This document shows positions 5,235 through 28,429 of a stretch of 55,068 bases of DNA, one piece after another. The stretch is from Stentor roeselii (taxonomy: Eukaryota > Ciliophora > Heterotrichea > Heterotrichida > Stentoridae). Below the pieces are notes generated by a model that did not search any database, was not told where the DNA came from, and was given only the letters and a program-made list of their open reading frames with translations. The stretch lies in NCBI GenBank assembly GCA_006503475.1, contig RSEH01000291.1, positions 1 through 55,068 of the forward strand, given 5' to 3'. Positions within the stretch are counted from its first letter, which is position 1, and the number at the start of each line of letters is the position of its first letter. The translations under genes were made by a program, and so were the position numbers.

Positions 5235-6387
5235 ATGGTAATAAATATGTCTTGCTCTTACAATGGCTGTCCTCTCGAAATCCGAAATTATTGTACAGGT
5301 TGCCCTACAATTACAAATTGGTGCGATGATCACTCAAATACTCATGAAAATGAGCCAGATCACTATCTTATATCTATCACCAATAAGGAGTTGAATATTG
5401 AATCTTTGAGTGATTTGAATTCAAAAATCCAAAATTATATTGTTCAGATTACTAATGATACTGAAAAAGTAATCTTAGCTTTGAAAAAGGCCTCAAGTGA
5501 AGCGATAAAGAACCTTAAAAAAGCAACAAGGAATATGAAGAGCGTCTCCGAATTAGAAGGATATCTAATTTCACAAGAAAGAATCTCGTTTCTAGTAGCT
5601 GAGGTGGGAGAGATCTCAAATGACATAAAAATCAGCACACTAAGCAAAATAAGTGATTTAAAACGAGAACTTTATGAAAAGGATCAGAACCTCCAAAATA
5701 TTGAGAGCCTAAAAACAACTATTGCAGCCTTAGAAGAAAAAGAAAGAGAAATGGAAAGGGAAAAGGAAAGGGAATTGAAAAGGAAATTGGAAAATACAAA
5801 AGGTTATACTTAAGTAGAACTTCAAGCCATGAATAAAAGTCAAAAGTTTCAATTATTATGGGAGATATTTGGCGATCAATTTAGGGCTAAGGATTTTTCA
5901 GAAGAAAAAGTACAAAAAGACTATGAAGAACTCTTATTTTCAAACAATGGAAAATATTGGTTTTTCTGTAATCAATATTAAGGTAATCTTCGAAAAAGAT
6001 CGTAACCTACAACAAAGTGAGTAACATACAACGAAGCTGGTAACCTGTAAGGAAGCTGGTAATCTACATCGAAGAAAGTAACTTACATTGAAGGACGTAA
6101 TTTACATCGAAGATGGTAACCTACATCGAAGAAAGTAACCTACATTGAAGAAAGTAACTTGCATCGAAGAAAGTAATCTACATTGAAGAGCGTAATCTAC
6201 ATTGAAGAAGGTAACCTACACTAAGGTAAAGGATATAGAAGTCAGTATCATCTACATAGTGGTGATTTGGAAGATGAAGTCCAGAGAGTTTGAGTTCGAA
6301 TCCATGAGCCCTGAAACCCACATGACAAGAGAATGGCTGGCCCGCTACCCGGAGTGTAGCTATAGCCCATGGGGCTACACTCTTTAG
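5235..6387 (+). CDS. B-box-like zinc-binding coiled-coil protein with one normal micro-intron and a tandem micro-intron array
   Basis: The N-terminus carries a B-box-like zinc ligand set (CSYNGC, CTGC, CDDH-x3-H, residues about 6-36), then a long charged coiled coil to about residue 190. A 15-nt intron (GTTATACTTAAGTAG, 5803-5817) removes a TAA and continues the frame to 'GKYWFF'. There a 15-nt unit (5968-5982) starts an array of intron-shaped units to 6241. With every unit excised the frame reads YLTAERHEKKKQV and enters an open frame ending at TAG 6385-6387 ('REWLARYPECSYSPWGYTL'). If the array is not spliced the protein stops at 5979-5981 after about 243 residues. The start ATG 5235 follows an A/T-rich leader; a second Met lies four codons later. 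B-box proteins form large families in ciliates; the ligand or partner is unknown. Confidence 0.6.
5968..6241 (+). repeat. 19-bp tandem array in which every unit is a 16-nt intron shape plus 3 nt
   Basis: Units start at 5983, 6002, 6021, 6040, 6059, 6078, 6097, 6116, 6135, 6154, 6173 and 6192. Each is GTAA, nine variable bases, AAG, then a 3-nt spacer (ATC, TGA, CTG, CTG, AAA, GAC, ATG, AAA, AAA, AAA, AGC, AAG). The array is bounded by a 15-nt unit GTAATCAATATTAAG (5968-5982) and by GTAACCTACACTAAG (6211-6225, 15 nt) directly followed by GTAAAGGATATAGAAG (6226-6241, 16 nt). By my count of the twelve full units against their consensus, the seven end positions show 0 differences in 84 sites, the nine inner positions 26 in 108, and the spacers 17 in 36. 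The 15/16-nt length matches heterotrich introns. Confidence 0.9.
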
Positions 6388-6895: not shown

Positions 6896-8191
6896 ATGTC
6901 ACAAGTTTCAAAGCAGCTTGCAATATACCTGGGTCTTCTCTTAGTAAACTCGACATACACGTTGATCGCTCCATTTTACCCTCTCGTCGCTCAAAAGAAG
7001 GGTCTTCCTCTATGGCTGATCGGTGTGATCTTCGCATTGAACCCATTAGGCAACATCCTGTGCACTCCTTTTCTATCCAAATACCTTCAAAAGCTCGGCC
7101 GAAAGCGAGTAGTCCTAGCGAGTTACATCCTAACAAGCCTATCCATGTTTATCCTTTCGCCAATCGAGTACCTGTCCCCGCCGTTCGTCGTTCTGCTCAG
7201 CGTGGTTTCTCGACTCGTCGGCGGGATGGGTGCCAGTTGTCTTTTCACAACAGTAATCACGATTTTCATCTCTGAATACTCAGACCAAATGCAAAAAGTC
7301 ATCGGGCGGATGGAAGCCGCCATCGGCCTCGGACTGATCATCGGGCCTATGCTGGGCACCTCTCTTTATATGATCAATCTTTTCGCAGCAATGACAGGAG
7401 TCGGTGTCATTATCTTGCTCTTCGTGCCAGTCGCTTGGAAGATGCTCGGCGAGTTCAGAGAGTATCAAGTAAAAGAAGTCAGTATTCAGCGAAAGTCACT
7501 ATTTTTTAAACCTGTAAATGAAAATTAGAGAATTTTACTTGGAGTGCTTATGAGTCTTGCTTATGTTTTTTCTTTTGGATTTTTAGCTTCGATTTTAGAG
7601 ATTCATTTACATGGCTTTGGACTTGGCACTCTTTATGTTGCGCTTTGTTTTATGCTTCAAAGTACGGTTTATGTGGTTATTTCACTTAGTGGAGGGTATT
7701 TGTTTAAAGGTATTGATGAGAGGCTGCTGATGTTGATTGGTGAAGGGTTTTTTGTTATTGCTTTTCTGATGCTCGGGCCTTGGCAGGTGGTATTTCCGAA
7801 GAGTCTCTGGGTGGTGATCGTCTCTCTTCCACTGTTTTCAGTTGGCCAGAGCTTGACCTACAGTAAGGCTTATTTAGTGTTCAGCATTCCTTTCATGATC
7901 AACAGCGCAGTCAACACCTACGGCTACTCTGAAGACGACATCTTGACTGACGTTATTTCTGCATTTTCAGTCCTCGGACAAGCAACTGGCGAAGTCATCG
8001 GCCCGATTTTCGCAGGATCGATTTCTGAGTATTTTGGAATCGAAGCCTGCTGTGTTTTTGCTTCGGTTCTTAGCCTTGGGTTCTTTTTTGTGTTTTTTTT
8101 TGCTTCTGGGTACTTTTCTGACCTGCTTCGAAGAAAAGGGATGAAAAAGAGTTCTTTGTTGATCAATACTAAAGTAGCTCCTCACTCTTAA
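6896..8191 (+). CDS. Major facilitator superfamily transporter, SLC18B1-like
   Basis: Two exons, 6896-7513 and 7529-8191, joined across a 15-nt intron GTAAATGAAAATTAG; 426 residues. About twelve hydrophobic segments are visible. The loop between TM2 and TM3 carries an MFS-type basic motif (SKYLQKLGRKR), and TM5 carries 'GLGLIIGPMLGTSLYM', resembling the antiporter motif of SLC18-type vesicular transporters. SLC18B1 moves polyamines in exchange for protons in animals; the substrate here cannot be told from sequence. Without intron removal the frame ends at TAG 7526-7528, so the intron is required. It converges on the SAM gene with only 3 nt between stop codons. The codon use of exon 1 is noticeably GC-richer than exon 2. 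Confidence 0.85.
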
Positions 8192-26841: not shown

Positions 26842-28429
26842 TTAGATTTATAGAATAATTAGTTTAAAGATTAACAAAAGTTTTATTATAAAGTTAGTCA
26901 ACATAGAGAGGCTTTGTATAGTTACCTAAAGAATATAAACTAATTTCATCATAGAATTGGACTTTATTCCAAAATCTTAAACTGAGAGATTTCTTCTTAT
27001 GATGAAAACTCGTGATTCTCTAATCATTTTTATTCGACTCTTTAATATTTAAGCTTTCCTAATCTGATTTAAACCAAAATCACCGACTAATAAAATTCCA
27101 TCATTATTTATAAATGAGTGAAACTAGCTCCGTTAAAGGTGTTTTCCATATTTTGATAGGTAAATGTTTCAAATACTTAAATTTTTCATGCAAGTTTCAA
27201 ATATTCATTAGTATTAAAAATGTTGAATGCTCTGAATTGTGTTCTGTGTAACTCACAAAAGTTCTAAAAAGACCAAAAGACTTGCACTTAGAATACAAGA
27301 TCCTGAATATTCCGTGAAAAAATTATAAGAAAAGTAGTTTAGGAAATGGAGACATAGTTAATACGAATGAAAAATCGTGAAATTTACAAAGTTTTCAGAA
27401 AAATTGATCTGAGAAAGGTGAAAAGTTCAGAATAACTGCAACAAATCTTAAAAGATAGAAATTTGAGTTTCCTTTTTTGCTCATGTTTTCGAAAACTGCA
27501 TTCATTAACTTCAAGAAAACGACATTCAAAAAAATCATTTGTGATATGAACTTATTATTCTTCAAGAAACTAAAATCAATAACTAAAGCTTCGAAAGTCT
27601 GGGAAAGACCTTTCAATCTTGTATCGAATAAATTAATAAAGAAAATTACAGAACCTGCTCAAAAATTTCAAAAATAATAAAAAAGTCTTTCAACGGAAAA
27701 AAATATTAAAGTTTGATAAGAAAAATCTAGAAAATTCCAGAACCTGCTCAAAAGTTTTATAATAATAAAAAAGTCTTTAAATTTAAGAAAGGTTAAAGTT
27801 TAATAAGAAAAATCTAGAAAATTAGCACCAAAGAGCTATTTTCAAGTAGGATTTCTCGATAACAAATGATATTTATTTATTAGTTAAATTTGATTAATAT
27901 AAGACTGAATCAACTAAAATATTATCTTCCAAGAAATAGAAAAGTATCTGGTTATGATTTGTGACTATTTATATTTAAAACTATGTAATGATTACAGTAT
28001 AGAATTTTTTATCAGACTTCAATTTTACACGATTTATAATTAATCAACTGAGACTAGTTGGAAGTTAAAACTTAAATTTATCCAATTATATCAAACCTAA
28101 ATAGACCAGAACTTAAAGTATTTTATTAAAGGAGCATTATTTTATTTCAATCATATACATATAAATAATGATAAAAAAAACATCTTCTGAGAATATGATT
28201 TTTATAGAAAATTCACTATAATTTGCTTATAAGAATCAGGAAATTTTAAGATTTTTGATTGATTATCTAATTAATTAGTATAAATTTCCTACTTTCAATA
28301 GGATTAAACCAAAGCAGTGATTTACTTAGTAAAGAAATTATAAGGTGATTAGATTATTTGTGCTTGAAATTAAACTAATTAATTTAAACCCACTTAAAAT
28401 AACTCTTCCACTTTCTAAATAATTAAGAT
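26842..28429. other. Gene-free AT-rich stretch
   Basis: No supported gene. A 66-codon frame at 27477-27674 is basic and low in complexity and I do not trust it. A two-copy tandem duplication is present at 27641-27824. The rest is AT-rich without clear structure. Confidence 0.5.
27641..27824 (+). repeat. Two-copy tandem duplication, period about 89 bp
   Basis: cagaacctgctcaaaa occurs at 27649 and 27738, ataataaaaaagtcttt follows in both, and gataagaaaaatctagaaaa or taataagaaaaatctagaaa closes each copy. The copies differ by substitutions and small indels. It lies in gene-free DNA. Confidence 0.75.

Follow-up and report, generated by a model that had tools for sequence, protein, structure and literature searches.

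The closest described relatives of the locus reported here are the micro-introns of heterotrich ciliates. Stentor introns are described as 15 or 16 nt long with a branch A at position 10 or 11 (PMC9505925), those of Blepharisma stoltei as predominantly 15 and 16 bp long (PMC9942806), and one account assigns about 95% of heterotrich introns to the 15-nt class (PMC11441545). Intron-bearing Stentor genes are summarized as having mostly one or a few introns, counts above eight being noted as uncertain (PMC9505925). Exons of a few nucleotides are reported among plant microexons, which include the 1-nt exons of APC11 and VPS55 and are described there as single or two adjacent (PMC8831610), and ratchet points are presented as intermediate stages in the splicing of long introns (PMC8605326, among others). 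For a potato RdRp gene, tandem duplication is reported as a source of intron gain (PMC4974935).

The arrays described in this study have elements in common with each of these systems and differ from them in arrangement. With the introns of Stentor and Blepharisma they share length and a branch A at 10 or 11, in addition to the GT-AG ends that the parse presupposes; unlike Stentor genes, they carry 6 to 57 introns, mostly 0 or 3 nt apart, and unlike the known heterotrich introns, 16-nt units dominate the main family and 14-nt units occur in divergent arrays. As with microexons, exons of a few nucleotides would be retained between introns, here as strings of one-codon exons instead of one or two. 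As in recursive splicing and zero-length exons, an AG is followed directly by GT, here at the junction of two 15-16-nt introns. In tandem exon duplication a unit is copied head to tail; the same head-to-tail copying of a unit is seen here, whereas the unit is only 18-19 nt, has a single-codon exon and reaches up to dozens of copies. Keyword searches of the literature showed no such micro-intron arrays among the titles and beginnings of abstracts listed. Micro-introns of heterotrichs, microexons, splice sites that abut and duplication in tandem are each known, and their arrangement, as predicted here, did not appear among those listings.

The window (the whole stretch analysed, 55,068 nt of Stentor roeselii, contig C221 among the 522 contigs of the 44.39-Mb genome searched) contains at 5968-6259 an array of 16 intron-shaped units with lengths of 15, twelve times 16, 15, 16 and 15 nt and spacers of 0, twelve times 3, 0 and 3 nt (Table 1). 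An earlier sequence-only reading had located the units and their GTAA-N9-AAG shape exactly to the base, and its tallies of departures from consensus were reproduced (0 of 84 at the end positions, 26 of 108 at inner positions, 17 of 36 in spacers); the array it proposed stands, and its count of 15 introns becomes 16, the unit at 6245-6259 having been overlooked. TRF reports a 19-nt repeat at 5996-6220 (score 177). A frame-blind search of both window strands for chains of at least 5 units returned only this array and a second chain, of 5 units, whose spacers are 1, 2, 1 and 2 nt; when 2 Mb were simulated on one strand from a first-order Markov model of the window, the longest chain had 4 units and occurred once. 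Removal of the 16 array introns together with an upstream 15-nt intron yields a single frame of 294 aa from the ATG at 5235 to the TAG at 6385-6387, so that the downstream frame ending at 6387 is indeed entered after excision, as had been claimed.

Table 1. Predicted features of the array gene, in window coordinates
Feature	Position	Strand	Remark
Exon 1	5235-5802	+	ORF; start ATG 5235 or 5247; Cys/His-rich N-terminus and coiled coil by eye
Ordinary 15-nt intron upstream of array, GTTATACTTAAGTAG	5803-5817	+	Required for joining the frames
Exon 2	5818-5967	+	Ends ...ELLFSNNGKYWFF plus first base of next codon
Micro-intron 1, GTAATCAATATTAAG	5968-5982	+	15 nt; abuts micro-intron 2, zero-length exon between
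Micro-intron 2	5983-5998	+	16 nt
Twelve 16-nt GTAA-N9-AAG units	5983-6207	+	3 nt after each
3-nt exons 1-6	5999-6001, 6018-6020, 6037-6039, 6056-6058, 6075-6077, 6094-6096	+
3-nt exons 7-12	6113-6115, 6132-6134, 6151-6153, 6170-6172, 6189-6191, 6208-6210	+
Eleven 16-nt introns alternating with 3-nt exons, first six	Starts 6002, 6021, 6040, 6059, 6078, 6097	+
The same eleven 16-nt introns, remaining five	Starts 6116, 6135, 6154, 6173, 6192	+	Block 5999-6210
Micro-intron 14, GTAACCTACACTAAG	6211-6225	+	15 nt; abuts micro-intron 15
Micro-intron 15, GTAAAGGATATAGAAG	6226-6241	+	16 nt
3-nt exon TCA	6242-6244	+
Micro-intron 16, GTATCATCTACATAG	6245-6259	+	15 nt; in paralogs same place, mostly 15 nt, some 16
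C-terminal exon	6260-6387	+	...VIWKMKSREFEFES...REWLARYPECSYSPWGYTL stop; TAG 6385-6387

The array is one of many. The sequence-only reading had proposed looking elsewhere in the genome for tandem GTAA-N9-AAG arrays, and the pair pattern GTAAN9AAG-N3-GTAAN9AAG has 151 genome matches against 9 for the reversed control, 142 of them inside 42 parsed arrays; its description as a minisatellite of micro-introns falls short for what is a multi-gene phenomenon and more than a minisatellite. The arrays come from 43 loci picked by pattern or protein matches (loci and contigs are numbered with L and C), 39 of which yielded 41 arrays, the window adding one more; the stretches examined at L024, L025, L026 and L039 held none. 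Pattern matches in C257, C324 and C338 were set aside, since by eye they look like ordinary coding sequence, WD40-like in C257 and C324. The architecture is conserved at both ends: a leading pair of abutting introns is present in 39 of the 42 arrays and a trailing pair in 37, and the last unit lies 8 nt upstream of a conserved Trp position in all 42. In some arrays (L029, L034b, L035, L043) this last unit is 16 nt long, and the frame there requires its removal.

Arrays were parsed from GT to the first AG at 14-17 nt, with a chaining penalty blind to spacer length modulo 3; the parse presupposes GT...AG ends and the 14-17-nt range and rewards GTA and, mildly, a branch A. It gave 515 introns in the 42 arrays, about 12 per array on average, 303 of them being 16 nt long, 202 of 15, 9 of 14 and 1 of 17, so that 505 of 515 have the heterotrich length of 15 or 16 nt. 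Among the 473 spacers, 466 are multiples of 3 (363 of 3 nt, 77 of 0, 15 of 6), compared with 235 of 613 in block-shuffled control arrays. Where units are 18 nt long, it is nearly always the intron that is one base shorter and the codon that stays whole (83 of 85 are 15+3, two are 16+2); 272 units have 19 nt and none has 20. When chains with spacers of at most 12 nt were sought on both strands of the loci from L009 onward (207,150 bases), 55 chains of at least 6 introns emerged, and 651 of their 662 spacers are multiples of 3. Arrays and units share descent, so these counts are not independent.

These figures bear directly on the view that the array is a non-coding minisatellite lying in the 3' UTR of a gene that ends at a TAA in or before it. 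The 19-nt periodicity would suit such a repeat, and unspliced, every one of the 42 arrays meets a TAA or TAG within 2-36 codons of the upstream frame (at L037 and L051 that frame is itself not established). However, spacers in threes and the absence of 20-nt units are unexplained by a DNA repeat without a coding role, in which insertions and deletions would come regardless of codon length; the spliced frame is open in 36 of the 42 arrays and leads to a conserved C-terminal exon, and one divergent array (L060, below) has 38 different introns and hence no repeat at all. We consider this explanation very improbable.

Spliced, with TGA read as Trp, 36 of the 42 arrays keep frame, and all 36 are open into the C-terminal exon. 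The standard genetic code, used initially, was dropped for TGA = Trp on account of the WD40-like gene L053, where by eye TGA stands where Trp belongs (IKI-TGA-DL), and of the array gene L049, which ends better under this code; Trp in the window's long ORFs is mostly encoded by TGG. UGA is reported to code for Trp in Blepharisma stoltei (PMC9942806). That the TGA spacer of the window is split between codons, as the sequence-only reading pointed out, would not matter in any case, since TGA apparently encodes Trp here. Six arrays lose the frame in the parse: 2-nt spacers occur in L041 and L046, and a 22-nt spacer each in L037, where it resembles a unit whose AG has been lost, and in L029, where it resembles a GC...AG unit; L027 and L033 are in frame only by later by-eye parses. 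L034a is in frame though one of its trailing introns is without its AG.

The split codons are conserved as well. At the first junction, which one intron or a pair of them interrupts, the split codon is Tyr (TAT or TAC) in 40 of the 42 arrays; in the two exceptions, L037 and L051, the start of the array is poorly placed. The codon split by the last intron encodes Leu, Met, Phe or Val in all 42. In the joined spacers of the 36 in-frame arrays, TAA or TAG occurs 0 times in 385 codons of the true phase and 4 and 25 times in 349 of each of the other phases. These observations argue against removal of 5968-6259 as one composite intron, or by skipping, with the 3-nt pieces absent from mRNA: end-to-end removal likewise keeps the frame (1+2 nt), yet spacer length would then be unconstrained, stop codons would have no cause to be missing only in the true phase, and Tyr is kept across the first junction. 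Such removal seems to us exceedingly unlikely. We also doubt very strongly that the arrays are relics of once-spliced genes, most of them now silent pseudogenes. Some copies do look broken (L037, L041, L046), and pN/pS is not low (see below); against this, 36 of 42 are intact at about 12 introns each.

Intron-type signals are conserved in the units, whereas the exons vary. Position 10 is A in 152 of 165 distinct 15-mers, and position 10 or 11 is A in 181 of 190 distinct 16-mers, values mildly favoured by the parse; in the 16-mers A10 (164) is commoner than A11 (71), unlike in Stentor. GT...AG ends are present throughout, as the parse demands. Mean within-array diversity of the 16+3 units (38 arrays) is 0.0-0.15 at GTAA, A10 and AAG and 0.65-0.69 at the exon positions. 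The prevalence of 16-nt introns in the main family runs counter to the figure of about 95% quoted above for the 15-nt class. Paralogs have 15-nt GT..AG counterparts of the ordinary intron upstream of the array, with A10 in 15 of 15 distinct sequences tested; of the 17 distinct sequences in all, one was omitted by oversight and one, from L051, is part of its array.

Ciliates also precisely excise intragenic DNA, about 70% of the predicted Blepharisma IESs being described as intragenic (PMC9942856), and the units might in principle leave as DNA during macronuclear development in an IES-like manner, not as RNA. However, the arrays sit in an assembly with telomere-repeat contig ends, and both the A at 10 or 11 and the 15-16-nt length match spliceosomal introns; we give DNA excision hardly any credence. 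The repeats in question, CCCTAACA, lie on the contig-end side of L042 and L046 and have the sequence reported as the telomere repeat of Blepharisma stoltei (PMC9942806). Telomere repeat and genetic code together suggest that this genome is that of a Blepharisma or a close relative.

The splicing interpretation extends to more divergent genes. A pattern of two 15-nt introns with A10 around a 3-nt exon (15+3+15) has 280 genome matches against 14 for the reversed control, and seven places chosen among these matches and examined as divergent arrays contain 211 introns, 43 of them 14 nt long, with 200 of 204 spacers being multiples of 3 (the others are 1 nt each in L061 and L062 and 13 and 2 nt in L063). 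The 38 introns of L060 (C92:179500-180900), 14-15 nt long, are all different, and its 37 spacers are all 0 or 3 nt. L059 has 57 introns in 951 bp, all of 15 nt, with 56 of 56 spacers in threes and mostly alternating 3-nt and zero-length exons, and continues at the edge of the stretch; L065 (C98:85700-86700) has 36 introns and 35 of 35 spacers in threes. If the 14-nt units (10 of 38 in L060, 17 of 36 in L065) are real introns, they would fall below the 15-nt length given for heterotrich introns in the papers cited above.

Read-through was followed for L060, L063, L064 and L065. In L060 and L064 an open upstream frame joins a C-terminal exon in phase 1, L060 passing from ...MTKDGGYILV through 35 array residues to MFVYDAKSGKALTAF...; L065, followed from the array onward, likewise joins a C-terminal exon in phase 1, and L063 as parsed misses the expected C-terminal frame. 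L064 (E 1e-5) and L063 (E 0.004) match the family C-terminus by tblastn; L060 resembles the family in layout only. Additional arrays were read by eye in C23 and C232. Among the 15+3+15 matches listed, all but about 60 of the 280, long clusters at C477:1614-2715, C416:14277-14938 and C516:704-1831 are possibly genes with dozens of micro-introns. Further matches lie at contig ends (C8:151494-151621, C127 at both ends, C354:30-227, C51:12, C82:12, C497:1), where perhaps the assembly breaks inside the repeat or the location is subtelomeric.

Taken together, it is highly probable that the array belongs to a coding gene in which spliceosomal micro-introns alternate with one-codon or zero-length exons, the introns having spread partly by tandem duplication together with a codon, and very likely that the arrays as a class represent real splicing architecture, as judged from sequence comparison. 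The intron duplication with one-codon exons proposed by the sequence-only reading is thus supported by spacers in threes, open spliced frames and conserved split codons, and again by divergent arrays of the same architecture, one of them without any repeated intron. Each unit would comprise a complete intron of heterotrich type, GT...A...AG over 15 or 16 nt, plus a phase-1 exon of 3 nt; toward either end of the array two introns would abut, leaving a single zero-length exon between them. The spliceosome would presumably remove the units, abutting introns leaving either stepwise or together, and tandem duplication of an intron with its codon would add one residue while preserving the frame, the codons diverging later. 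Five of 259 adjacent unit pairs are identical in intron and codon and 15 in the intron, which fits recent tandem duplication of this kind as the candidate mechanism.

Divergence is higher at exon positions (0.66) than at free intron positions (0.42); array codons may be under diversifying selection, and homogenised or constrained introns are also compatible with this difference. For the C-terminal exon, pooled pN/pS is 0.77 (177 of 820 pairs, standard code) versus 0.90 and 0.89 in the other frames, and where the N-terminus was usable and close, in 12 of 55 pairs, it is 0.50 versus 0.64 for the N-terminal part. Modest purifying selection on this exon is indicated; strong purifying selection is not borne out by pN/pS. 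A large nonsynonymous excess separating L009 from the window gene (Fisher p 0.007, computed from rounded counts) was discarded as evidence of selection, this pair being picked post hoc from 820 and proving nothing alone.

The encoded protein could be given no convincing database name by Pfam, PDB profile or phmmer searches. The spliced domains align around ELLFSNDGKYxFxY ... VWNLETKxxE ... WKxRYPEC, the C-terminal exon being conserved around WNLETK...RYPEC, and F45, Y47, W63 and E91 are invariant in 28 aligned sequences (of 33 assembled). The Trp is not universal, being replaced by Arg in L016 (one of the five outside the alignment), Leu in L014 and L047, Val in L051 and Tyr in L027. At E<=5 a profile of the 28 spliced domains matched 16 sequences of the PDB, the best with E 0.011. 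Of these, 14 bear the names of WD40 proteins (RACK1, also as receptor for activated C kinase; SMU1; ribosome assembly protein 4), and the remaining two are named mitogen-activated protein kinase. These matches lend weak support to a WD40-like domain. In the Pfam results that show cut-offs, including those for the window member, no match exceeded them; four WD/beta-propeller models match 1-3 of the 28 members each (best E 0.068-0.18), and phmmer with a single family member gave no match. In three spliced proteins Pfam gave no B-box zinc finger match, the Cys/His spacing being B-box-like by eye only.

If the domain folds as a WD40 blade, the array-coded part would correspond to the b-c hairpin, and in the window protein the array residues would occupy this place as ...FSNNGKYWFF-Y-LTAERHEKKKQVMV-IW.... 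The distance from the split Tyr to the residue before the Trp position varies from 8 to 28 residues in the 36 intact genes, and such a variable hairpin might possibly serve in recognition. The window's upstream protein has at least 113 own-genome matches (150 of 204 candidates scored). A broader idea, which we find conceivable and rather doubtful, is that of a gene class encoding one segment codon by codon, each codon fenced by a 14-16-nt intron, in which an in-frame expanding and contracting cassette diversifies a recognition hairpin in dozens to more than 100 genes, as a splicing-based system of protein diversification. Among the family members, the C-terminal part of L025 and L026 resembles by eye a ubiquitin-like domain, and L030 has a very long coiled-coil-like stretch in a 630-residue model.

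The predicted arrangement would be of importance both for the study of splicing and for genome annotation. A large gene family with stretches in which nearly every codon is set off by its own 15- or 16-nt intron would represent an extreme of RNA splicing. From one transcript the spliceosome would accurately remove 16 to 57 introns at intervals of 3 or 0 nt, the exons being much too small for exon definition and the introns near the physical minimum; if so, they would offer a direct test of splice-site pairing models, steric limits and the order of splicing. Such proteins might vary one amino acid at a time, and the arrays may show ongoing intron gain via tandem duplication of an intron with its codon. 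In genomes of this kind, RNA-seq-guided annotation could truncate a whole gene family.

The window proved to be without tRNA (ARAGORN) or known structured RNA (Rfam, gathering thresholds). Other tandem repeats are found at 27640-27824 (period 87 bp) and 2481-2570 (period 36 bp), the latter overlapping the chance chain with spacers of 1, 2, 1 and 2 nt. Finally, a 15-nt intron-like sequence, GTAAATGAAAATTAG, lies at 7514-7528 within an apparent MFS transporter gene, with MFS_1 matches flanking it on both sides, the second being weak (E 0.00022, below the cut-off).
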